Shown piece after piece: positions 2,940 to 45,834 of a stretch of 64,000 nt of DNA (its first letter is position 1; each line of letters opens with the position of its first letter). A program made the translations under genes and the position numbers. The notes below the pieces were generated by a model, which was not told where the DNA came from, ran no database searches, and saw nothing but the letters and a program-made list of their open reading frames with translations. The stretch spans positions 4,495,001 to 4,559,000 of the forward strand of contig NZ_CP067395.1 of NCBI RefSeq assembly GCF_017355525.1. Direction: 5' to 3'. The stretch comes from Lysobacter enzymogenes (GTDB taxonomy: Bacteria; Pseudomonadota; Gammaproteobacteria; Xanthomonadales; Xanthomonadaceae).

Positions 2940-3446
2940 CTAGTTGACGCAAGACAGGGAAAAATCCAGATCCGTCGGCGCCAGCGGCGATGCGTTGACG
3001 GCCGCATGGGTGCGTACCGTGTACGTGACAGTGCCATTGTGACCTGGGGGGACCACTCGCGGAGCCGTCGTAGGCTTCAGGTCGGGCCAGATCTTTACGG
3101 TCGACGCCGCGTCGCTGCCGTTGCCGGCGGTCACCGTGCAGATGCTCGCATGAAGCGTGTACAAGACTGCGCCGGTCGCCGGATCGGTCGTCTCTTCGAT
3201 CGGATGATTCACGCCTACTTTGTAGACCCCGGCGCTCACGTGAACCGGGTTGTTGATCCAGCAGTCGGTTTCCCCGCGTCGCGCCTGCACCGATCCATCG
3301 GCATTGATGTAGGCCGTGCACGTGCCATATGCGAATACGGAAGGCGAGGCGACGGCGCATGCGAGCGCGATGCCTGCGCATGCCGTGGCGAACAACGGCT
3401 TGCCGGCGCGGCGCGAGCGCTGCGGTGGGTTCGGTTTTCTGCGCAT
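2940..3446 (-). CDS. Secreted protein of unknown family, paralogue B
   Basis: A 168-residue protein with a basic N-terminus and a signal peptide ending near SVFA-YG (residue 39). The mature domain starts TCTAYINADGSVQARRGETD and keeps the same motifs and cysteines as the neighbour at 2357-2896, including the C-terminal PTDLDFSLSC. GAAGG precedes ATG 3446. It is the upstream gene of the duplicated pair and the two are probably co-transcribed. Conservation of cysteines and of the YTVRT segment suggests a folded extracytoplasmic domain, with function unknown. Confidence 0.8.
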   Translation of the reverse strand: MRRKPNPPQRSRRAGKPLFATACAGIALACAVASPSVFAYGTCTAYINADGSVQARRGETDCWINNPVHVSAGVYKVGVNHPIEETTDPATGAVLYTLHASICTVTAGNGSDAASTVKIWPDLKPTTAPRVVPPGHNGTVTYTVRTHAAVNASPLAPTDLDFSLSCVN

Positions 3447-3787
3447 GATTGCGGCACCTTCATAAGGGCGATGGCGCTCTGAGGGAGCGCCAAAGATACT
3501 GGGCGCCCTGCGGGGCCTTGTCTGTGACCGGCTTGCCGCTAGTGTTCGCGAAAGCCCGGATTTTCGCGTCCGAAACGGGGAGGTCGCGCAGGCGCGCAGT
3601 CGGGTCGCACACGGATTTCACAAGCGCCAGCCAGTCGACTGCCGGGCCGGACCGCCTGCCGCACAGCGCCGAAACAGCCGGCGTCCACGCTGCGAAAGAC
3701 CATCGGCAGCCGGTCACTTTGGTGCGTACGACGGCAGGCTTCGAAACAACGCGAGGCTCCGCGCAGTGGCTCACGCCAGCTATCCAA
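3447..3787. other. Intergenic region with weak minus-strand ORF
   Basis: There is an open minus-strand frame at 3460-3774 (104 codons) that ends 13 bases before the paralogue-B start. Its last third (LPVSDAKIRAFANTSGKPVT and an LW..S end) faintly recalls the N-terminus of DUF4102-type phage integrases. The similarity is short, lacks the expected Gly-rich stretch, and no attachment site or tRNA is visible. I do not call a gene here. Confidence 0.25.
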
Positions 3788-4672
3788 TCATTTCAGCGGC
3801 AGAAACAGTTCCACTACAACCTCATGCGCCGACATCCCCGGAATGGGCGCGAGCCGGCGCCGGCAATAGAGCGGAAAATCGCGCGCTTCTTCGCCGCTGG
3901 CCGGAAGCCAGTCGCGATAGAGATACAGCGCGGCGGGTTCGAGATTGTCAGTGTTGCCGGGATAGCGCAGCACGGCGCAGCGGCCGCCCGGAATCGTCCC
4001 GGGTTTCACCTCGGCATCGTTCGCCGTGATGGGCCGGTCCGTCGCAACGCACAGGTCCATGCTGTAGTCGGCGGGGTCCGCAGGCGTTCGTTCGGACCGG
4101 AACACCATAAAGCTGGGGCTCGACTCCGGCGGCAAGCCGGCGCTCTTGCGCCAACGCATGAAACGTTCGCGCGTTTCGGCGATGGCGCTCCGGTCGCCGC
4201 GATGTTCGATCATCGCCACCGGCGTATCTGCTACCTCGCGGACCACTACGTCGTTGCGATCGAAAACAATATGCATGAGCTTGTTCCTTGCGTTGTCGAG
4301 GGGGCCGAAGGCCGCGAGCCACACGCCCCAGTCGGGGGCTTTCCGAAACGATGACGGCGACTGCCCGAGCCGCTGCCTGAAGGCGCGGGCGAAAGCCTCG
4401 GGCGCGTCGTAACCGGCTTCCATCGCGATATCCGTAACGCTCGGCATCTCACTGGACGTCAGTCGTTGAGAGGCGCGCCGCATTCGCATGAGCTGGACAT
4501 AACGGTGCAGCGACAACCCGAAAGCGGCCGCGAACTGGCGATGGAAATGAAACTTGGAGAAGGCGGCGGCCCGGCTGACCGCGTCCAGATCCAGGTCGGA
4601 ATCGAGGTTCCGATCGATGTGCGCCAGCACGTTGCGCATTCGGGAGTAGTAATTTTGCGTCGCCGTTTTCAT
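3788..4672 (-). CDS. AraC-family regulator with GyrI-like effector domain
   Basis: 294 residues. Residues 10-110 are a two-helix-turn-helix AraC/XylS DNA-binding domain (FSKFHFHRQFAAAFGLSLHRYV, then VTDIAMEAGYDAPEAFARAFRQ, quoted here in parts as signature positions 38-59 and 78-99). Residues 130-294 are a GyrI-like small-molecule-binding domain (VREVADTPVAMIEHRGDRS, later PGGRCAVLRYPG). Putting the HTH first and the GyrI domain second is the usual order for Rob/SoxS-relative regulators that sense drugs or hydrophobic cations. The gene stands alone, so its targets cannot be read from context. Confidence 0.9.
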   Translation of the reverse strand: MKTATQNYYSRMRNVLAHIDRNLDSDLDLDAVSRAAAFSKFHFHRQFAAAFGLSLHRYVQLMRMRRASQRLTSSEMPSVTDIAMEAGYDAPEAFARAFRQRLGQSPSSFRKAPDWGVWLAAFGPLDNARNKLMHIVFDRNDVVVREVADTPVAMIEHRGDRSAIAETRERFMRWRKSAGLPPESSPSFMVFRSERTPADPADYSMDLCVATDRPITANDAEVKPGTIPGGRCAVLRYPGNTDNLEPAALYLYRDWLPASGEEARDFPLYCRRRLAPIPGMSAHEVVVELFLPLK

Positions 4673-4942
4673 GGCTCGCCTGGGTCATCCGTTCCGGAGT
4701 GGCCAGGCTATCCTGCTCCTCCTGGCCGCGCCGCGCCCGACCGATCTTGCTGAGCTGGAGCAGGACTAAGCGGCGCAGAAGGTCGAATTGTGCCGCGCGC
4801 GCCGCAGGCAGGCGAGCAGGGAGCCGAAGCGCTCGCGCCGCCGCGGAGCATCGATGGTCGCTGGGGCGATCGCGATCATGGAGCTACGGGCGCCCGCCGG
4901 ACACGCGAGGCGAGCCGGCACAACGCGCCGGCGCCGCGGTCC

Positions 4943-7162
4943 TCAGAACTTGCACCGCACGCTGGCCAGCACCGTTCGCGGCTCGCCGAAAGCGGTGCGG
5001 TCGCTGCTGGCGCCGCCGGGAATGTAGCGCTTGTCGAACAGGTTCTTGAAGTTCAGGCGGGCATCCCAGCGCGCGGCTTCGTACGAGAGCGCGGCGTCGA
5101 AGGTGGTGTAGCCGTCGAGGCGGAACGGCCGCTGGTATACCGGATCGAGCGGCTCATAGTTGTTGGCCAGACGCTCGCTCTCGGCGTGCGCGCCCAAGGC
5201 GATGCCCAGGCCGCTGAGCGGACCGGCGGGCACGGTGTAACGCGCCCACAGATTGGCGCTGTGGCGCGGCACGCCGGCTAGCCGTGCGCCCGAAGGCAGA
5301 GTCTGATCGCGCACGATTTCGGCCTGGGTCCAGGCATAGGCGAAGCTCAACTCCCAGTCGGCGCGCGGCCGCCATTGCCCTTCCAGCTCCACGCCGCGGC
5401 TGCGCTGTTCGCCGCGGGTGATGTAGTAGTTGGGATGTTGCGGATCTTCGCTGGCCATGTCCTGGCGGGTCAGCTCGAACACCGACAGCATCGCGTTGAT
5501 GCGGCCGTCGTGCGGCGCGAGCTTCAGGCCGATTTCGTTGTTGACGCCGCGTTCGGGCGGCAGGGCGCTGCCGTCGAAGCTGCGGTAATTGGCTTGCGGC
5601 GCGAACGAACGCGAATGATTGAGGTACAGCGCCAACTGCGGCCGCAGCGCATAGGTCAGGCCGACGCGCGGGCTGAACTGCCGGTCCTCGGCGCGCCCGG
5701 GGCCGACGCCGCTGGAGGCGACGTCCCAGCGTCCGCCCAAGGTCAAGGTGGTGCGCGCACCGAGCTTGGCGTGATCCTGCAGGTACACGCCGCGCTGGCG
5801 CATGGCCTGATCGGTACGGGCGCCGTTGATGAAGGCCGGATGCAGGCCGGTGCGGCCGTACACCGGAGCGAACACATCCAGATCGTAGGGGCCCGGATCG
5901 AACGTATCGGTGTAATAGGAACGACGCTCGCTGTAGTCGTAGCCCAGCAGCCAGCGATGCTCGATCGCGCCGGTACGCAGCGTACCGCTCAGGCTGGTGT
6001 CCGAACGCAGGTCGTGGCCGCGCTCATCGTAGGGGCCGTAATAGAACCGCCCGAACGTGCGCAGGTCCGGGCTGACGCCGGCGACGAACAGCCAATGGTC
6101 CCAACTGTCGTGGAACTCGGAATACCGCACCGACTGGCGCAGTACCAGGCGCTCGCTGAAACGGTGCTCGAAGCTGTAGCCCAGCGCGTCGTAATCGCGG
6201 CTCTGCACCGCCGGCGCGTCGCGCTCGTTGATCGCACGGTGGCGCGGCAGGCGGCCGTTCGGATTCGCAAGCGCGCTGCCGTAGGCGGGGATCGGCGACC
6301 ACGGATTGATCCGGTCGCGCTGCCAGGTGCCGAGCAAGGTGATCGAAGTCGCTTCGCCGATGTTCCAGGTCAGCGACGGCGCCAGATACTTGCGTTGCGC
6401 GCCGGAGAAATCGACGAAGAAGTCCTGGTCGCGGTAGATGGCGTTCAAGCGCGCGAGCACCCGGCCGTCGCGGTCGAGCGGGCTGTTGGCGTCGATGCCG
6501 ACTTCGCGCAGGCTGTAGGAGCCGGCGGCCAGATCCACCGTGGCGAAGCGCTGCTCTTGCGGCCGTTTGCTGACCAGGTTGACCAGTCCCGACAGCGGCC
6601 CCTGCCCGTACAGACCCGAAGCCGGCCCCTTCACCACTTCGAGGCGATCCAGACCGCTGAGCTCGGTCGTCGCCATCGCATTCGACCACAGCAGGCCGTC
6701 CAGATAGGTCGCATCGGCCGAGGCGTTGAAGCCGCGGAGGTTGAAACCGTCGAAGAAACCGTAAACGTCGTTGCTGGTGACGCCGGCGACGTTGCGCAGC
6801 GCTTCGGGCAGACGGCGCGCGCCTTGCGCGTCGAGGGTTTCGCGGGTGACGGTCGACACCGCCTGCGGCGTTTCCAGGGTCGGCGCATCGAGCTTGAGCG
6901 CGGCGCTGGTTTCGCGGCGACGCTGGCCTTGCACCACGACATCGTCCAGGGTCACCGCCTTGCCGGCCGCGGCGTCGGCGGCGGGCGTCGCTTCGGCTTC
7001 TGCCTCGGCGGCGCGGGCGCGCGGGCTTGGCGCCATTGCGGCGGCCAGGGCGAGCGCGAGTACGCCGCCGCGGCGCGCGTTCGCAGCGACGCGCGCTCGT
7101 GCGTGCGTCGTGGGCGCCAGGGAAAGGTTCGCGGCAAGCGGAGGGGAAAGGGACAGACGCAT
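4943..7162 (-). CDS. TonB-dependent siderophore receptor
   Basis: 739 residues. ATG 7162 has GGAG eight bases upstream; the open frame reaches further 5' but only as Arg-rich sequence. After an N-terminal signal region ending near residue 52 there is a TonB-box-like TLDDVVVQGQ, a plug domain (TLETPQAVSTVTRETLDAQG; later ATYLDGLL, LDRLEVVKGPASGLYGQGP, GLVNLVSKRP) and a long beta-barrel ending in the aromatic terminus ASVRCKF. The plug pattern is that of the FhuE/FoxA-like ferric-siderophore receptors. It transports iron chelates across the outer membrane using TonB energy. It could be paired functionally with the SIP/MFS cluster at 54-57 kb. Substrate unknown; iron control is expected, but I did not identify a clear Fur box. 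Confidence 0.92.
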   Translation of the reverse strand: MRLSLSPPLAANLSLAPTTHARARVAANARRGGVLALALAAAMAPSPRARAAEAEAEATPAADAAAGKAVTLDDVVVQGQRRRETSAALKLDAPTLETPQAVSTVTRETLDAQGARRLPEALRNVAGVTSNDVYGFFDGFNLRGFNASADATYLDGLLWSNAMATTELSGLDRLEVVKGPASGLYGQGPLSGLVNLVSKRPQEQRFATVDLAAGSYSLREVGIDANSPLDRDGRVLARLNAIYRDQDFFVDFSGAQRKYLAPSLTWNIGEATSITLLGTWQRDRINPWSPIPAYGSALANPNGRLPRHRAINERDAPAVQSRDYDALGYSFEHRFSERLVLRQSVRYSEFHDSWDHWLFVAGVSPDLRTFGRFYYGPYDERGHDLRSDTSLSGTLRTGAIEHRWLLGYDYSERRSYYTDTFDPGPYDLDVFAPVYGRTGLHPAFINGARTDQAMRQRGVYLQDHAKLGARTTLTLGGRWDVASSGVGPGRAEDRQFSPRVGLTYALRPQLALYLNHSRSFAPQANYRSFDGSALPPERGVNNEIGLKLAPHDGRINAMLSVFELTRQDMASEDPQHPNYYITRGEQRSRGVELEGQWRPRADWELSFAYAWTQAEIVRDQTLPSGARLAGVPRHSANLWARYTVPAGPLSGLGIALGAHAESERLANNYEPLDPVYQRPFRLDGYTTFDAALSYEAARWDARLNFKNLFDKRYIPGGASSDRTAFGEPRTVLASVRCKF

Positions 7163-8008
7163 GACGGGCTCCGGGGGGAAAGCGCCGTCTGCCGCTCGGG
7201 CCTCAGGCCGCCGGGCACGTGTGCGTGGTTGCGCCGCGCAGGCTGCGCGGCGCGCGAATGATAGGCCAAGCGCCGAAGCCGTCGCAAATCCAGGCCCGGC
7301 GGGCTGGGCTGTCGCTGGCCGTTGCCCGGATCTAGCCCTTGGGGGGCGGGGCTGCAAGGCGAGTCGTCATGAGTGGGCTATCTCCGAGTAATCCTGGGCA
7401 ATCGAGAAAGTCGGATTCGGCTTGCCCGGGTTCCACCAGCGCCGGAGGTCTCGCGCCTTTCGGCAAAACGCCGCTCTCTGGCGTGTTGCGGGCGCTCCAT
7501 CCCTGCCTGCGTTGTCGTTTCAGTCGCGGATTCGCCGCGCCCCACGCCGAGCCTTCTGGATTTCAGCGGTCGTGCCGAATATCCGCTCGGGCCGGGTTAT
7601 CCCGTTGCAGAGCTCACTGGAGAAATGGTCTTGCGATTGCCTGGCTTCAGGGCAAATCGGCTTTTCCCCGAAACGTCAGCGCCGATCCGGCTGTTGCACG
7701 AATGAAACGCGTCGCTCGCTGGTTGCCGACGCTTTTGCGAGCGAAGTCGCATTGGCGCGAAATGGCCGCCGAATTCTGTGAGAGGAATCAAGCATCGATC
7801 GAAAAAAATGGCCGCCGCTTCCGCTCGACAGCGTAGTAGCTGGCGATGCGCCAAGACGCAGACGCTTGACCCCTAAGACGACGGTGCTTCCGTCGAATCG
7901 CGCAAACGGCGCGTGTTTCGACGGGAGCCGCTGGCTCCGTGCAGCCGGCGAATGCAGCAGCGGCGCCTCCCGGTCCTGGAGGCCAATCATTACGAAGGAG
8001 ATTCCAGT
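7163..8008. other. Long intergenic region, no supported gene
   Basis: About 850 bases between the divergent TonB receptor and lectin genes. Three overlapping plus-strand frames are open at 7339-7836 but show no start with a ribosome site, no domain and Arg/Ser-rich translations, so I treat them as chance frames. GC is lower from about 7600 to 7850. Promoters of both flanking genes must lie here; I do not see an unambiguous -35/-10 pair. Confidence 0.5.
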
Positions 8009-8434
8009 ATGGCAGGCATCCAATGGGCGGCTCCCCAATCCCTGGGCTACATCCCGTCCGGCAAGCTCGTGACGTTCACGGCGATGCATCAGGCCGAATA
8101 CACGCAATACGTCCAGATCATCGACGCCAACAACCAGCCCATCAGTTTTTATACCTTGGACGGCAGCCAGGCGAAGTTTCCGATCTCGGGAAGCGGCGTC
8201 AACGTCGGCTTCCTCCAGAACGGCGCCGGCCGGTTCACCATGGCGGACGGGATGAAGGTCCAGTTCGGCAGCAGCGGGTCGCAACCTCCGAAGGTCTCGG
8301 CGGGCACTCCCGTCGTGTTCTTCATCGTCGACCAAATATTCGGTGGGGGCACCTTGTACGTAACGGAAGACGGCGCCGATAACGACTACAACGACACCAG
8401 CTTCGTTATCCAGTGGTACCAGTACGTGGGCTGA
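8009..8434 (+). CDS. LecB/PA-IIL-like calcium-dependent lectin
   Basis: 141 residues with AAGGAG eight bases before ATG 8009 and no signal peptide. The C-terminus carries TEDGADNDYNDTSF (119-132), which matches the calcium loop of the Pseudomonas fucose/mannose lectin PA-IIL (EDGTDNDYND). Ligand residues E120, D124, D126, N128 and D129 are all kept, and the chain ends in Gly141, as in PA-IIL, where the terminal carboxylate binds calcium. The N-terminal two-thirds is diverged and longer than PA-IIL (about 115 residues). It is expected to bind sugars through two calcium ions, possibly at the cell surface. The next gene follows 118 bases later on the same strand. Confidence 0.82.
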   Translation: MAGIQWAAPQSLGYIPSGKLVTFTAMHQAEYTQYVQIIDANNQPISFYTLDGSQAKFPISGSGVNVGFLQNGAGRFTMADGMKVQFGSSGSQPPKVSAGTPVVFFIVDQIFGGGTLYVTEDGADNDYNDTSFVIQWYQYVG

Positions 8435-8552
8435 CCCGCTTCCGCCCCGTTTCCGATCGAAGCGGGGCGGCATGACCGCTCATGAATTCCCATGGCAGCC
8501 GCGGTGGATCGCGTGGATTCACCGCGCGGCGCAACAACGACGGAGTGCGGCA

Positions 8553-10313
8553 ATGAAGACCAGGATCATTATGTTCGGCGCACTCGCCAGTGCGCTGGCG
8601 ATGTCCGCAGCGTGTACGAAAACCGAACCCACTGTCGCCGCTTCAGCGATCTCCAAGGACCAGACGACGCCGTTTCCGGGCGGCGCGCCGATCACGGCGG
8701 CCGACCTGACCGCGACGCCGGCGGTTTTGCCCGCCGCGCCGCCGGCGTACAACTACGATCCCTACAACCCGAACATCACCCACGCGCAGTACGCGCGTTT
8801 CGCTTGGCGTCAGTTCATCCACTTCAATTCACCGGCGCAGAAGAACGGCGTCGATGCCGCCGGCAAGTCTCCGGTCGTGCGCGGGACCATCGATCCGGGC
8901 CGCAACTTCGCCGCATCCGGCGCCAGCGACTTCTACCAGAGCGGCACGGGCGCCGCTTCCAACTTCAGCAGCAATCAGCTGGTCTGGGAAACCTTCGCGC
9001 ACCGGTCCGAGCTGTTCCCCGCGGGTTCGGCTCCCAAAGGGAACCTCGCGGCGCTGGATCCCGAGTACGTCTTCCAGGGCAACCTCAAGGTCGCCTCGAC
9101 CGATGCCCGGTTCAACAATCTCGACGAAAACACCCAGATCGGCCAGAACCAGATCTTCTTCCCGAAGAACGGCAGCACGCCGTCGGCCAACCCCCAGGAC
9201 GATCACATCATCCTGTTCCAGGCCAAGGTGAACCCGGTCGAATACGACTACATCAAATCCATCTACAACGCCGACAAGCCCCCGGCCTCGCTGGAACTGC
9301 CTCCCAACGGGACGAACCAGGCAGAGTCCGTCGAGGTCAAATCGGCATGGCGGGAAATGACGCCGGCCTTGATCGCGTCCGGCCGTTATCACACGGCCGA
9401 AGCCTTGTACTACTACAAGGAAAATGGGGTGACTCAGGCGCGCGTGGCCACGTTCGGCCTGGTCGGCCTGCACATCCTGCGCAAGATGGAAAACTACCCG
9501 ACGTTCGTCTACACCACCTTCGAACAGATAGACAGCCTGACCACGCCGGACAAGCAAGACACCGGCTTGTATCTCATCAACCTCTACAACGAGATGCAGT
9601 ACGACGCATCGGTGCCGCCGGCGACGCGGCCGTCGGCGATCCTCAATTCCGGATCCAACCGGACCCTGGTCGAACTGCCGTTGGCGGGCCCGGTGGACAG
9701 CGCTCACGGCTACGCCGTCGTTCCCGGCAAATACACCATCCCCAACGGGTTTTCGGGTCCGATCAAGGTGCAGAATCCGCCGGTGGCGACCAGCGCGGTC
9801 TTTGAGGTCAACAACGAAGTCCAGCAAGCGATGGCCAGCACGCCCGCGTTCAAGGACTCGGTGTGGCGGTATTACCGTCTGGTGGGGCTGCAGGTGTTGC
9901 CGACCAACGAGGACACCTCCGTCACGCCGGCCAAGCCCGATCCGCTGACCCAGGACTTTTACCTGGCGAACATCGTGATCGAGAGCAGCCAGCCCGGCAT
10001 CCAGTTGTTCAAGGGCGGAGTCAAGGATCCCGATCCCGACAAGCAGCAATTCACCCTGCTGGCCAAGCGCGGGTTGCCGAGCATTCTGGGCGTGAAGTCC
10101 TTGCCTCCGAACACCGACAAGGTGGTGATGGGCGGCTGCATGGGGTGCCACGGCAACGCGCAATATCCCAGGAACGCTCAAGGCCAGGGTTCGAGCATCT
10201 TCAGCTTCCTGATCAACCAGGGCACGCTGACGGGGCAAGGCTTCAGCGCCGACGTGCGCAACGAATCGTCTGCGGAGTTGAGCGCGAAGCGTCTGGAGTA
10301 TCTGGTCTACTAG
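8553..10313 (+). CDS. Lipoprotein with C-terminal CxxCH haem-binding motif
   Basis: 586 residues. ATG 8553 follows GGAG and starts a lipoprotein signal peptide (MKTRIIMFGALASALAMSAA then C20). The body shows FAWRQFIHFNSP, VWETFAHRSELFP and long regions without a family I know. Near residue 530 it has GGCMGCHGNAQ, a single CxxCH motif typical of covalent c-type haem attachment, in a setting like small cytochrome c lipoproteins. It is predicted to be periplasm-facing and membrane-anchored. Its place right after the lectin gene suggests a joint operon. It could be an oxidoreductase needing one haem; no other redox motif is visible. Confidence 0.8.
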   Translation: MKTRIIMFGALASALAMSAACTKTEPTVAASAISKDQTTPFPGGAPITAADLTATPAVLPAAPPAYNYDPYNPNITHAQYARFAWRQFIHFNSPAQKNGVDAAGKSPVVRGTIDPGRNFAASGASDFYQSGTGAASNFSSNQLVWETFAHRSELFPAGSAPKGNLAALDPEYVFQGNLKVASTDARFNNLDENTQIGQNQIFFPKNGSTPSANPQDDHIILFQAKVNPVEYDYIKSIYNADKPPASLELPPNGTNQAESVEVKSAWREMTPALIASGRYHTAEALYYYKENGVTQARVATFGLVGLHILRKMENYPTFVYTTFEQIDSLTTPDKQDTGLYLINLYNEMQYDASVPPATRPSAILNSGSNRTLVELPLAGPVDSAHGYAVVPGKYTIPNGFSGPIKVQNPPVATSAVFEVNNEVQQAMASTPAFKDSVWRYYRLVGLQVLPTNEDTSVTPAKPDPLTQDFYLANIVIESSQPGIQLFKGGVKDPDPDKQQFTLLAKRGLPSILGVKSLPPNTDKVVMGGCMGCHGNAQYPRNAQGQGSSIFSFLINQGTLTGQGFSADVRNESSAELSAKRLEYLVY

Positions 10314-40949: not shown

Positions 40950-42194
40950 CTAAGCCGCGGCGGCGCGACGGAGCCGTTCGAGGAATTCGCGCCCGCGCCG
41001 TCCCGGCGCCATCACCACGCCGGTGCTGACCAGAAAGAAACGTTCCAGTTCCGGCGACAGGCTGCTGACCACCCAGAAATCGTCGGCCTCGCGGTGATTG
41101 ACCGCGTGGTACAGGATCAGACCGCGCGCACGCAGATCGGCGACGACCTCCGCGAGCAGCTGCCGCGGCGTCTTGCGCGCGGGCTCGGCGAAATCCCAGT
41201 GCGCGCGATGCAGCCGGCGCGGATCGATGCCGCCCATCGCGCAGTCGCGCAGGCGCGGGTACGCGGCCAGCAGCTCCAGCGCGAGCCGGTCGAGCCCGGC
41301 CAGATGCTCGGTGTCGCGCTTGATGTCGACGCACTGCACCAGCTCGCTCAGCGCGCGCAGCGCCGCGTGTTGCGGATACGGCGAAGCGCCGCAGCCGTGC
41401 GAGAACACGACTTCGTCCTCGAGCCGCCGTTCGGGCACGGCGATGAAGGCCGGATAGGCCAGGTCGCTGGTGATGTCGATCAGGCGCACCCGGCAGCCGA
41501 CGCGTCGCTCGGCGGTGCGGTGCGTGCGCGCCAGTTCGTCCGGCAGCGACGCCGGGTCGATCCAGCGCCCGTAAACGCCGTCGCCGCCGAGGTAGTGCGC
41601 CATCAGGAACAACGACCAGGCGTCGCGCTCGACGATCTCGCCGATGCCGTGCAGCGCCGCTTCCGCGAAGCTGCCGCCGATCGCGGTGCCGCTGTTGCTG
41701 CCGAAGCGCAAGGCGCGCGTGTAGTCGAAATCGTCGCGCGGATCGGCCGCGCGGACGCCGCCGGGATAGTCGGGGAAACTCAGGAACAACGGCACGGGCA
41801 GCGCGTCCTCGCCCGAGTACGCGGCGTAGTCGCGGCAGGCCAGGCGCCGCTGCGGTTGTCGTTCGAACTCGGACAGAAACGGCAGCGCTGCGTAGCGCGG
41901 GTCGTCGGCGATCGCGCGCGCGCTCGGGTAGTCCCACTGTTGCGGCAGCACCGAGGCTTTGCAGTAGTAGTGTTCGACCGCTTCGTACACCGCGCCGGTG
42001 TAGGCCGCGTCCGGCGCGCCCTTGCCGCCGCCGAAGGCCAGCGTTTCGCCGCCGGCGTCGAGCAGGAAGCATTTGGCCGCGACCAGGCCCTCGCCCAATC
42101 GGTCGGTATCGATGCTCCAGCCGCGCCGCGCGATGCAGGCGCGGATGATGCGGTCGGCCTCGTCGAGACTGCGCTCGCGTTCGTACGGAATCAT
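40950..42194 (-). CDS. YcaO-domain protein, probable RiPP backbone-modifying enzyme
   Basis: 414 residues; GGAG eight bases before ATG 42194. The ATP-binding YcaO signature is complete: GAVYEAVEHYY (Glu71, Glu74), SNSGTAIGGSFAEAALHG (166-183) running into IGEIVERDAW with Glu186 and Glu189, and ALRALSELVQCVDIKRD. YcaO enzymes phosphorylate peptide backbone amides to form azolines, thioamides or amidines. The C-terminal PxPxP typical of azoline-forming members is absent (the end is LRRAAAA). No E1-like, TfuA or dehydrogenase partner is adjacent. A 58-codon gene lies 73 bases upstream on the same strand and is the obvious substrate candidate. Soluble, cytoplasmic. Confidence 0.93.
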   Translation of the reverse strand: MIPYERERSLDEADRIIRACIARRGWSIDTDRLGEGLVAAKCFLLDAGGETLAFGGGKGAPDAAYTGAVYEAVEHYYCKASVLPQQWDYPSARAIADDPRYAALPFLSEFERQPQRRLACRDYAAYSGEDALPVPLFLSFPDYPGGVRAADPRDDFDYTRALRFGSNSGTAIGGSFAEAALHGIGEIVERDAWSLFLMAHYLGGDGVYGRWIDPASLPDELARTHRTAERRVGCRVRLIDITSDLAYPAFIAVPERRLEDEVVFSHGCGASPYPQHAALRALSELVQCVDIKRDTEHLAGLDRLALELLAAYPRLRDCAMGGIDPRRLHRAHWDFAEPARKTPRQLLAEVVADLRARGLILYHAVNHREADDFWVVSSLSPELERFFLVSTGVVMAPGRRGREFLERLRRAAAA

Positions 42195-42267
42195 GCCCGC
42201 GCTCCGGTTCGTTGGCGAACGACGCGCGGCGCGGCAACCCGCGCCGCGCGCCGGCGGCGCAAGCCGC

Positions 42268-42444
42268 TTACTTGGCGAACTCGTCGAGGAACGCCTGTTC
42301 CTGTGCGGTCGGCGCGTTGAGCTCGACCATCGTCGCCTTGAACTCGGCGGCCGACGCGCTGTTGGCGCGCAAGGCGTCGCTGGCCGGAATGGCCGATCCC
42401 TTCTGGAGCACGGTCTTGATCACTGCGGGACGCTCGTTACCCAT
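42268..42444 (-). CDS. Candidate RiPP precursor peptide upstream of YcaO gene
   Basis: A 58-residue peptide from ATG 42444 with an excellent ribosome site (AAGGGAG, 7 bases upstream) and TAA at 42268. It begins MGNERPAVIKTVLQKGSAIP and ends AQEQAFLDEFAK. It has no cysteine, no signal peptide and no membrane segment. Helical, charged ends surround a Ser/Ala/Thr-rich middle (SDALRANSASAAEFKAT). It sits directly before the YcaO gene on the same strand and is probably co-transcribed. Size and position fit a precursor or leader-type substrate. Without Cys, any YcaO product would need Ser/Thr or a backbone amide. Alternatively it is a small accessory protein. I do not recognise the family. Confidence 0.7.
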   Translation of the reverse strand: MGNERPAVIKTVLQKGSAIPASDALRANSASAAEFKATMVELNAPTAQEQAFLDEFAK

Positions 42445-42644
42445 GATTCGACTCCCTTGGTCGCAGAAGACTCAAGGTCGCGCCGCCGGGCCGGTTCGGG
42501 CCGTGGTTGCGGTTCGTCCTTGTGCCGCAGCCCGCGGCTGCGCTTGCAGGCTCGGGGCGGCGAGGACGGTCGTCAGTGATAAGGGTCACAAATGCTTCGG
42601 CGGCCGGCGCGCGAGGCGACCAGCGGAGCGCGCGGAGCGCGCAA

Positions 42645-42680: not shown

Positions 42681-42893
42681 TCAGTGCTCCGGCGGATTCA
42701 CGCCGCAAAGCTCGCGGCAGTAGCTGTAGTCCGCCGCATAGCAGGCGGCTTCGCCGCCCTCGGGGGCCGTCAGCAGGCACTGCGCGATGGCGGCGCGCTT
42801 GCATTCGACTACGCAATCCCTGGCCAACGCCGCGGTGGCGAAACTCAGGCCGAACACGAAAGCACACACTGCCAGCTTGCTGGTACGCGTCAT
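42681..42893 (-). CDS. Small secreted protein with twin CX3C motif
   Basis: 70 residues; AAGGAGAG just before ATG 42893. Signal peptide to about residue 25 (ALA-R). The mature part has CVVEC, then X7-C, X11-C, X7-C and REL-C: CX3C-X7-C-X11-C-X7-CX3C, six cysteines. It has the same layout as the 70-residue protein at 1894-2106, with a longer middle loop. It is likely a disulfide-held helical hairpin exported to the periplasm or outside. Function unknown; the two define a small family within this window. Confidence 0.75.
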   Translation of the reverse strand: MTRTSKLAVCAFVFGLSFATAALARDCVVECKRAAIAQCLLTAPEGGEAACYAADYSYCRELCGVNPPEH

Positions 42894-43263
42894 TTCTCTC
42901 TCCTTAGAGGCCCAGGACCGGGCGTGTCGAAGCCGCGGCCGGCGGCCGGCGGCGCATCGAGCTTGGTCGACTGCGCGCGGCCTGTCCATCGGGTCCGCCG
43001 ACGCCGAGCCGGGTCGGTCCGCATTTGTGCGAGCGCCCTCACGACCGCCGCGATTCGATCCGGCCGGACGAAAGACCGCAGCGGCCGCGCCTGCGCCGCC
43101 GATCGCGCCCCGGCAAACCGATGAGCCGAACCGCGCGGCTTTTGCGAGTACCCGAACGCCCGCTGCATCGCAGCCGGGCCGCCGGCGCGACGCCCGCGAT
43201 GCGCTCGCGCATCGTCCAGGCCCCGCCCCGTCTCTCGCCTATACCCCTGACAGGAGCGACATC
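42894..43263. other. Divergent intergenic region
   Basis: 370 bases between two secreted-protein genes. Long open frames on both strands here are Arg/Pro-rich and lack ribosome sites, so I treat them as chance frames. The 5' regions of both genes must lie here. Confidence 0.45.
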
Positions 43264-44126: not shown

Positions 44127-44501
44127 TCATCGTCCGCAGCGCAGCCCCGGCTCGCCTTTCACCGCTTTGCACGCCGGCGCGCCGTACTCGTCCCGGCACT
44201 GGCGCGCCGAGGAACACGAGCGACAGCGTTCGCCTTCGCAAACGTAGGCGCCGCACGCGTTCAATTTCCCGTCGCGCAACGCGCCCGCTGCGTGCGGCGC
44301 GGGCCGGCAGCGGCGGCCGTATAGATCGTTGGGCGCGACGCACGTCCGTTGGTCGCAGAAACCCGAACCGCATTGCGCATCCGCCGAACACGCCGCGCCG
44401 AGGCGGCGCGACGCGTCGTGCGCCGCCTGCGGACTTTCGCGGCCGCAGGCGGCGCAGATCAGCGCGATCGACAGCAGCAGCGCCTTAGAGACAGCCGGCA
44501 C
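44127..44501 (-). CDS. Cys-rich lipoprotein
   Basis: 124 residues from GTG 44501; this start is chosen because the lipoprotein signal (ALLLSIALICAAC) then begins at once. It overlaps the end of the neprosin gene by 17 bases. The mature part has LGAACSADAQCGSGFCDQRT, a Dickkopf/EGF-like six-cysteine pattern common in exported proteins of myxobacteria and xanthomonads, then more cysteines (RRC, NAC, VCEGERCRSC, QC, AC, RC). It is likely anchored in the membrane facing the periplasm or cell surface. Co-transcribed with the protease gene. Confidence 0.65.
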   Translation of the reverse strand: MPAVSKALLLSIALICAACGRESPQAAHDASRRLGAACSADAQCGSGFCDQRTCVAPNDLYGRRCRPAPHAAGALRDGKLNACGAYVCEGERCRSCSSARQCRDEYGAPACKAVKGEPGLRCGR

Positions 44502-45834
44502 CTTCGCGTCCCGGGCCGCCGTAGTAGAACCAGTTGCGCCAGATCGGGTCGGTATGGAAATACGGGCCCAGGCCGCTGTAGCACGCGGCATCGGTGACCG
44601 ACAGCGAGCCGCTGTCCCACCACCAGTAGTTGTCCGCCGACCAGAAATACGTCAGGTTGCGGAAGTACGCGGCGTGGCCGAACTGGGCGTTGGCGTAGGC
44701 GCCGCTGCCCATGTCGGTCGAGGTCGATGCCGGCGCGGTGCTGTCGTAGATCTCGCCGTACCAATCCAGGCGGTCGGCCTTGTCGCGGATGCCGGCGGCC
44801 GAGAACAAGGTGCCGCCGGGGCACGGCGGCGCGCCGCCGCCGCCGATGCAATACGGGTAGTAGCCCGCCCACTGGCCCGCCGCCTTGACCCACCAGTTGC
44901 CGTTGAACAAGCGCACTTCCAGATCGAGGTCGTATTGCGGGCCGCCGGCGACGCTGGACCAGCCGACCAGCGACATGCCCGGCGCGACCGTCGGCGACAC
45001 CTGTACCCAGCCGCGCACCAGCGCGTTGTAGCCGCCGACCCAATCGCCCGAGGCGTCGTCGTTGGTGCGGAAGTAGGTGAAGAACACCGGTTGCGAAGCC
45101 GGCGCGAACGCGACGTGCTCGATCTTGCCGGCCTCGATCGCCTGCATCGGCGCGCCGCGGATCACCGCGGTCTGGGCGATGGAGGTTTCGCCGTACACCG
45201 GCCCCGCCGTGTCCCAGATGTTGATGTAGCCCGAGGTGCCGTAGACATCGGCGAAGCGGTGCCAGACCACGTAATAGCGATTGTTCGACGCGGGGCTGGG
45301 CGCCGGCGGCGCCTTGCTGACGATCTGGCGCGGATCCAGCGGCAGGTTCTTGACCTGGCGCAGATAGGCATCGACATCGAAACGCACCACCGGCACGGTG
45401 CCCTTCGGCCCGCGCATCCCCGCGTCGAGCTGCACTTCGGTCTGCGCCGTACGGTTCGGCGCGCCCGGTGCCTTGGCCGCCAGCGAGGAAGCCTGATACG
45501 CCTGCCCCTTCGGCGGCAGGCCGTCGCCGTCGTCGGGCGGCGCGGCGATGACGCCGTCGGCGACCTGCGATTGCGGCAGGATCCAGTCGATGATCTGGCC
45601 GGATTTCGTGCGCGTGGTCGCGACGGCGCGATAGGCCGAACGTTGCTGCTCGAAGAATTGCACGATGCGGTTCTTGCGCTGCTCGTACTCGACCGCGCTC
45701 AACGGCGATTGCGGCGTTGCGCGGGCGGACGGGACGTCGGTGTTCGTGGCAGCGGGCTGCGCGCTGTAAGCCGGTGCGGCGGACAGCGCGAGCAGGGCGG
45801 CGGCGAAACGGCCGGGGACGGACGATTGCGGCAT
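44485..45834 (-). CDS. Neprosin-family glutamic endopeptidase (PF03080-like)
   Basis: 449 residues, signal peptide to about residue 24 (YSA-Q). A propeptide-like region runs to about 190. The neprosin domain follows: YVVWHRFADVYGTSGYINIW, SIAQTAVIRG, then MQAIEAGKIEH with the first candidate catalytic Glu, FFTYFRTNDDASGDWVGGYN, NGNWWVKAAGQWAGYYPYC and RLDWYGEIYDS with the second Glu. These match the plant neprosin/DUF239 peptidases, which use two glutamates to cleave after proline at low pH. Bacterial members exist in xanthomonads. It is secreted, and the lipoprotein gene at 44127 overlaps its end. Confidence 0.88.
   Translation of the reverse strand: MPQSSVPGRFAAALLALSAAPAYSAQPAATNTDVPSARATPQSPLSAVEYEQRKNRIVQFFEQQRSAYRAVATTRTKSGQIIDWILPQSQVADGVIAAPPDDGDGLPPKGQAYQASSLAAKAPGAPNRTAQTEVQLDAGMRGPKGTVPVVRFDVDAYLRQVKNLPLDPRQIVSKAPPAPSPASNNRYYVVWHRFADVYGTSGYINIWDTAGPVYGETSIAQTAVIRGAPMQAIEAGKIEHVAFAPASQPVFFTYFRTNDDASGDWVGGYNALVRGWVQVSPTVAPGMSLVGWSSVAGGPQYDLDLEVRLFNGNWWVKAAGQWAGYYPYCIGGGGAPPCPGGTLFSAAGIRDKADRLDWYGEIYDSTAPASTSTDMGSGAYANAQFGHAAYFRNLTYFWSADNYWWWDSGSLSVTDAACYSGLGPYFHTDPIWRNWFYYGGPGREGAGCL

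Follow-up and report, generated by a model that had tools for sequence, protein, structure and literature searches.

A conserved two-gene YcaO cassette in Lysobacter enzymogenes with a Cys-free peptide as its probable, putatively follower-directed substrate

A stand-alone YcaO gene and the small peptide gene that precedes it in a 64,000-nucleotide stretch of Lysobacter enzymogenes DNA (the window) form a conserved genetic unit, a conclusion that is well supported. We read the two genes, at a probability of about 0.6, as a self-contained enzyme-substrate unit in which the peptide would be a leaderless, follower-directed substrate of RiPP type subject to amine/amidine chemistry. The parts of this reading differ in strength: the peptide is very likely the dedicated substrate of a partner-less YcaO, follower-type recognition through its C-terminus is probable, and the amine nucleophile and amidine product are proposed tentatively. 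Judged from the sequences, the pair appears to be a well-supported enzyme-substrate cassette and a new variant among stand-alone YcaO systems. The locus comprises the following features, given in window positions.

42452..42458, minus strand: ribosome-binding site AAGGGAG of the peptide gene, read from the sequence, 7 bases ahead of the ATG
42271..42444, minus strand: precursor-like peptide gene, 58 aa, from the ORF list (42444..42268 with the stop included)
42271..42309, minus strand: codons for the peptide C-terminal TxxExxxLxxxAK, the proposed follower helix (23 of 23 peptides fit; predicted helix 47-57)
42220..42253, minus strand: 15-bp hairpin with a loop of 4, G-T pairs allowed, in the gene gap and without a T-run; putative attenuator or mRNA-stabilising stem
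40953..42194, minus strand: stand-alone YcaO gene, 414 aa, with a Pfam match (ORF 42194..40950 including the stop)

The two genes are separated by 73 bases (42195-42267). The window peptide starts with Met-Gly, contains no Cys and carries TAQEQAFLDEFAK at its C-terminus; the YcaO C-terminus is free of PxPxP and ends ...ERFFLVSTGVVMAPGRRG... The original prediction had described a complete YcaO domain, a same-strand 58-codon gene with an AAGGGAG ribosome site 73 bases before it, a Cys-free peptide, and neither an adjacent partner gene nor PxPxP. It holds on these counts: the small gene and its ribosome site are present in the sequence, the ORF translation confirms the absence of Cys, the Pfam match (E = 4e-32) covers profile positions 2-325 of 325, Pfam detects no YcaO partner among the nine window ORFs scanned near the YcaO, and the motif is missing from the enzyme C-terminus. 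The peptide has zero matches to Pfam or NCBIfam models. Upstream of the cassette, on the minus strand, lies a gene of the Neprosin family (PF03080, E = 5e-32; window 44485-45834), whose cluster has no second member across the compared neighbourhoods. A small ORF on the same strand, at 42681-42989, precedes the peptide gene; it encodes several Cys and an internal signal-peptide-like start, and gives only a chance-level family match in Pfam and NCBIfam.

The YcaO matches PF02624 over its full length with 112 bits against a cut-off of 25.7. Residues E178, E186, E189, R190, R280, E284 and Q287 are invariant in 12 clade members and S175 is invariant in the nine YcaOs of A1; by comparison with SxxE...ExxER and RAxxELxQ, which we take to be the ATP-site motifs of YcaO enzymes, the window YcaO appears to keep the ATP-site residues. 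An AlphaFold2 model built from nine sequences has a mean pLDDT of 86 and a pTM of 0.88, and the 41 PDB structures that match its fold at E <= 0.001 all contain a YcaO. One of them is MusD (7u58), an entry titled ATP-dependent peptidase YcaO. The single-domain YcaOs of Methanopyrus and M. jannaschii give the best coverage, with a TM by target of about 0.7; the E. coli YcaO match reaches about 0.4, a value in which the extra length of that protein is counted. The best solved sequence relative of the YcaO profile is MJ1094 (E = 2e-17), and E. coli YcaO, though in the PDB, is absent from the profile's PDB sequence matches up to E = 1. At 414 residues, compared with 586 in E. coli YcaO, the window enzyme is without the E. 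coli C-terminal extension. The NCBIfam models for McrA thioamidation and for SagD score 53.6 and 62.8 bits, against cut-offs of 365 and 219, respectively.

Exactly three YcaO proteins, all of one subfamily, are found by PF02624 in the source genome, the other two being 49 and 54% identical to the window YcaO. In a search of 20 Lysobacter genomes at E <= 1e-20, 11 hold a total of 23 subfamily YcaO genes, with up to three pairs per genome. A related peptide is encoded on the same strand upstream of all 23 and ends 70-161 bases before the YcaO. Locus L025 carries two tandem peptides and in this may resemble RiPP precursors, which are often arranged in tandem. A profile built from 12 of the found peptides retrieves 24 peptides from the 20 genomes, all located at YcaO loci by their coordinates, and finds 0 matches in the nine YcaO-free genomes of the genus. 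Peptide and YcaO distances are strongly correlated over the 23 loci (Mantel r 0.947, with the nearer of the two L025 peptides used; 0 of 2000 permutations as high), and nearest-neighbour agreement between the two is only 14/23. The expectation that the peptide is kept beside the YcaO in relatives is borne out by this pairing at 23/23 loci and by a peptide profile that hits the same loci only. With the pairing conserved and the enzyme not grouping with E. coli YcaO, both computable tests that could have refuted the original prediction were passed, and as a genetic unit its "minimal RiPP-type cassette" therefore has good support; the unusual chemistry that it proposed is tentative. The precursor gene dedicated to its enzyme, by which a RiPP is recognised, is seen here solely as genetic linkage.

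The subfamily is rare. With the source genome counted, it occurs in 4 of 149 family genomes (1e-10) and, at 1e-30, in 3 of 200 order genomes and 1 of a phylum sample of 398. A broad clade profile run over the 398 phylum genomes finds six, including the source genome; the other five match more weakly, and one of them (G348) falls with TfuA-linked YcaOs in the tree. Phages give no YcaO match and plasmids no peptide, the plasmid relatives of the YcaO all being below 60% identity.

In a tree of 37 of the 45 collected rows (eight close copies dropped, L067 left out), the Lysobacter YcaOs and eight others form one clade with support 95/91. The eight distant members are L012 and L050 (same family and order), Nonomuraea, Streptomyces, two Vibrio, Pantoea and L063. 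The clade is separate from TfuA-linked, E1-fused and E. coli YcaOs in this tree, which has several long branches of unsure placement; the discrete TOMM YcaO of S. salivarius, itself on a long branch, adjoins the clade (83/86). The enzyme had been expected to fall outside the E. coli YcaO group and does so, the E. coli branch being very long. Twelve clade members share an N-terminal ER, GxGKG and a C-terminal ERF-x5-G-x4-P. A small peptide is encoded upstream of seven of the eight distant YcaOs, three of these peptides being annotated genes and four being unannotated and picked as the nearest ORF with a ribosome-site-like word. All seven start with Met-Gly, compared with 22 of the 269 small ORFs in these loci that have a ribosome-site-like word. 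L063 has no convincing upstream peptide, its 49-codon ORF overlapping the YcaO start.

The Lysobacter peptides fall into four types, A-D, which track the YcaO groups. They have 45, 46, 58 or 59 residues and are all Cys-free: type A peptides (58-59 aa) start with Met-Gly, and types B and C (45 aa) and type D (46 aa) start with MKK. What they share is the C-terminus, where T-x-x-E-x-x-x-L-x-x-x-A-K-stop is found in 23/23 peptides (one per locus). The invariant Thr of this segment sits 13 residues from the peptide end and is the only Ser/Thr position invariant across the aligned Lysobacter peptides; whether a single Lys is conserved in all types varies with the alignment chosen. In the distant peptides the related motif [TSN]xxExxx[LIVMF] is present in six of seven, one Vibrio peptide being without it; the motif is short, was defined after seeing the peptides and is matched by each shuffled peptide 4-36% of the time. 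Its distance to the peptide end is 9-32 residues, compared with 13 in Lysobacter, the flanking residues vary, and three of the seven distant peptides contain one Cys each. The Ser/Ala/Thr-rich middle pointed out in the original prediction is present in type A, to which the window peptide belongs, and missing from types B-D; as a hint to function it finds no support, because the part conserved from type to type is the C-terminus.

Purifying selection acts on the type A peptide: nine pairs, all of this type and not independent of one another, give dN/dS values of 0.07-0.42. In seven of the nine the peptide is more alike than upstream and intergenic DNA alike; the two exceptions, L010/L020 and L021/L022, are near-identical pairs whose gene gap is slightly more alike than the peptide. 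When the window peptide is modelled from a 12-row alignment, residues 1-20 have no secondary structure and helices are placed at 21-42 and 47-57, the second beginning directly after the invariant Thr46; the model is weak because its mean pLDDT is 72 and its pTM 0.26.

Neighbourhoods of 17-21 kb were compared for 20 of the 23 Lysobacter loci and two outliers, using ORFs of at least 90 codons that passed a codon-composition filter, which removed the YcaO of L053 itself. In the 20 Lysobacter neighbourhoods the YcaO alone among the gene clusters occurs in all four types; four others are common to two types only. No wider conserved gene cluster is present within roughly 9 kb in these neighbourhoods, nor do they hold a conserved exporter, protease or recognition-domain partner. 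Among the distant members, the two Vibrio loci have an ABC transporter gene next to the YcaO (the membrane domain is shown for one), the Pantoea locus has an adjoining methyltransferase gene and one Streptomyces locus a SagB/ThcOx-type dehydrogenase gene. The Vibrio loci are on plasmids, where the Met-Gly peptide, the stand-alone YcaO and the ABC transporter occupy 5750-8537 of L056 and 3845-6636 of L061. Both actinobacterial YcaOs have a subtilase (Peptidase_S8) gene a few kb away (L054 11501-12715, L055 3314-6451). TfuA (PF07812) is absent from the source genome and from all 11 YcaO-bearing Lysobacter genomes, compared with 2 of the 9 others; the two TfuA loci, L102 and L103, belong to genomes in which no subfamily YcaO was found (G015, G062).

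In the proposed mechanism the YcaO would recognise the conserved C-terminal helix with its [T/S/N]xxE N-cap. By analogy with the follower of bottromycin, this C-terminal segment is the likeliest docking element. Using ATP, the enzyme would activate a backbone amide within the more variable N-terminal part of the peptide, which is predicted to be unstructured. In Met-Gly peptides, removal of Met would expose the amine of the N-terminal Gly as the nucleophile, giving an amidine; in MKK-type peptides a Lys amine, or the Met amine, could take this part. An amine nucleophile and an amidine product are the likeliest outcome, there being no Cys, no Ser/Thr conserved across the types in the N-terminal part, no TfuA and no adjacent E1-like partner. 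An amidine at an N-terminal Gly would not be a genus-wide rule because types B-D start with MKK, from which Met is normally retained. Amine nucleophiles are documented for YcaO enzymes in PMC8442711, PMC5103208 and PMC12338566.

Bottromycin resembles the cassette in arrangement in several respects. The bottromycin precursor has an N-terminal core and a C-terminal follower, as described in PMC7136475, and attack of Gly1 on the Val4-Val5 amide is called the plausible route in PMC5103208. Partner-less YcaOs are present in both systems (two stand-alone YcaOs with the precursor BtmD in bottromycin), the bottromycin precursor starts with Met-Gly like type A and the seven distant peptides, and its follower also has S-x-x-E-x-x-x-L, like the C-terminus of the cassette peptide. 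In contrast, the Lysobacter peptides are Cys-free, one YcaO is present instead of two, and no conserved methyltransferase, P450 or hydrolase stands beside the Lysobacter YcaO. Identity with bottromycin was rejected, as the precursor fails the model NF033414: neither the window peptide nor eight cassette peptides match it, whereas a published bottromycin-type sequence does so at 4e-31. A run of NF033414 over the whole genome also returned 0, as did the controls of that search.

Streptamidine-type systems (AmiA/AmiD) share with the cassette a YcaO unfused to other domains and precursors whose cores are not rich in Ser/Thr/Cys, and their product carries an amidine formed from the N-terminal amine; in contrast, they need genes for AmiB (predicted RRE/E1-like), a hydrolase, a dehydrogenase and a FecBCDE-like transporter, AmiD has a Pro-rich C-terminus, and the systems are reported from Actinobacteria and Firmicutes, all according to PMC8442711. 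The daptide enzyme DapY likewise uses a nitrogen nucleophile in a Cys-free ring formation, but keeps PxPxP and depends on other daptide enzymes that make the amine first, as stated in PMC12338566; no daptide-like gene set recurs beside the Lysobacter cassettes. YcaO-TfuA thioamidation systems have the same YcaO fold and ATP-activated backbone chemistry, and a small upstream ORF in Rhizobium, but form a separate clade. On plasmid L098 of Rhizobium rhizogenes a small ORF precedes each of two YcaO genes (3298-4714 and 6569-8645), and only the second YcaO is followed by TfuA in the stretch shown. Three further assignments were rejected: an azoline (TOMM/LAP) cyclodehydratase, as no fused or adjacent E1/ThiF-RRE partner is common to all types in the 20 neighbourhoods or present among the nine window ORFs scanned, and PxPxP is missing; TfuA-type thioamidation, given the separate clade and YcaO-bearing genomes free of TfuA; and an E. 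coli-type YcaO (RimO accessory), given the tree and the lengths of 414 and 586 residues.

The C-terminal position assigned here to recognition could itself be reactive, with the invariant Thr, Ser or Asn as the nucleophile of an oxazoline-type ring, or of a pyrimidone-type ring in the case of Asn, and with the N-terminal part as the leader. It is the sole invariant Ser/Thr position in the aligned Lysobacter peptides, the motif opens with Thr, Ser or Asn in six of the seven distant peptides, and Pei et al. are said to have described, in 2025, Asn-derived rings made by YcaO enzymes. Nevertheless such a role is unlikely: a T/S/N followed by E at +3 and by L at +7 has the look of a helix N-cap, in keeping with the modelled helix after Thr46, azoline-type YcaOs usually come with a partner and PxPxP, neither of which is present, and the surroundings of the motif vary in the distant peptides. 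A doubtful but more plausible alternative would make the peptide a small stable cellular protein, to which the YcaO adds one maturation mark, as in McrA and ribosomal proteins, and not an exported natural product. Consistent with this, no exporter or protease accompanies the Lysobacter cassettes, type A peptides are strongly conserved among themselves and up to three paralogous pairs are retained per genome. The great divergence of the peptide types outside the C-terminus, the tandem copies at one locus, the ABC transporter adjoining both Vibrio clade members and the patchy distribution (11/20 genus and 4/149 family genomes) argue against it.

The fixed site of the small ORF just upstream and the hairpin between the two ORFs would also suit a regulatory leader (attenuation peptide) for the YcaO, which would then have another substrate. 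This appears highly improbable in view of the good ribosome site, the length of 45-59 codons, the purifying selection on amino acids, a C-terminus conserved over four deep types, the tandem duplicate and the gap of 70-161 bases. Hardly more credible is a thioamide or RimO-related role of the E. coli or TfuA-linked kind. It would draw on MJ1094 as best solved sequence relative, on the Methanopyrus and M. jannaschii YcaOs as best-covered full-length folds and on the McrA and SagD model scores, which lie below their cut-offs; the tree separates the YcaO from both TfuA-linked and E. coli YcaOs, and TfuA is confined to genomes outside the YcaO-bearing set.

Under the preferred reading, a dedicated substrate modified through its follower, the cassette may further represent an undescribed class: leaderless and follower-directed, with a single partner-less YcaO, a Cys-free peptide and an amine nucleophile, reduced to two genes in Lysobacter with up to three paralogous pairs, and with relatives in other Gammaproteobacteria and in Actinobacteria that add an ABC transporter, a methyltransferase or a SagB-type dehydrogenase. 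This broader proposal is speculative and on balance unlikely; if true, the MKK types of Lysobacter would use a Lys side-chain amine, a chemistry absent from the cited sources in the portions available. No description of the Lysobacter peptide/YcaO pair was found in searches of open-licence PMC papers, which were mostly not specific to Lysobacter. Three YcaO orthologues with raised expression are reported in L. capsici, and the available portion of that report names no substrate (PMC10745450); the cassette peptide would supply a candidate substrate for YcaO genes already noticed in Lysobacter. The cassette places an enzyme next to its likely substrate in two genes, with four natural variants within one genus. 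Should a partner-less YcaO work from a C-terminal helix on a Cys-free peptide, the substrate rules and chemistry of the family would be widened and a compact tool for backbone modification would be at hand.

The gap between the two genes contains an uninterrupted stem of at least 10 bp in 19 of the 23 loci and of at least 12 bp in 15, and might serve to hold peptide levels above those of the enzyme. The position of this hairpin matches that of the terminator predicted between btmD and btmE, the precursor and YcaO genes of bottromycin, in PMC7113386. The window hairpin is without a T-run and is not listed by a terminator scan, and Rfam gives a single sub-threshold match (E = 0.5), within the YcaO gene. 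The four remaining loci, all of type B (L014, L015, L023 and L030), have an interrupted stem followed by a T-run: their uninterrupted stems of 6-7 bp are not above shuffles, and a longer one-mismatch stem before at least five T, read by eye, is part of the minimum-energy fold of L014, L023 and L030 and not of L015. The 10-bp stems of L013, L016, L027 and L024 are equalled in 12-18 of 300 shuffles. Among 2000 random 85-base stretches of the window, a control that differs in length and GC from some gaps, 12 bp is reached in 1.9% and 9 bp in 11%; whole-gap folding z-scores of -0.3 to -4.0 are confounded by GC content. In the seven distant loci, 9-bp stems occur in L050 and L062 only, the others having 5-7 bp, and the longer stems in the folds of L012 and L055 are interrupted or wide-looped. 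Type A loci show no clear promoter words in common. In all ten type B and C loci a sigma70-like promoter, with 8-10 of 12 consensus bases and scored without a shuffle control, is located 119-126 bases ahead of the first peptide.
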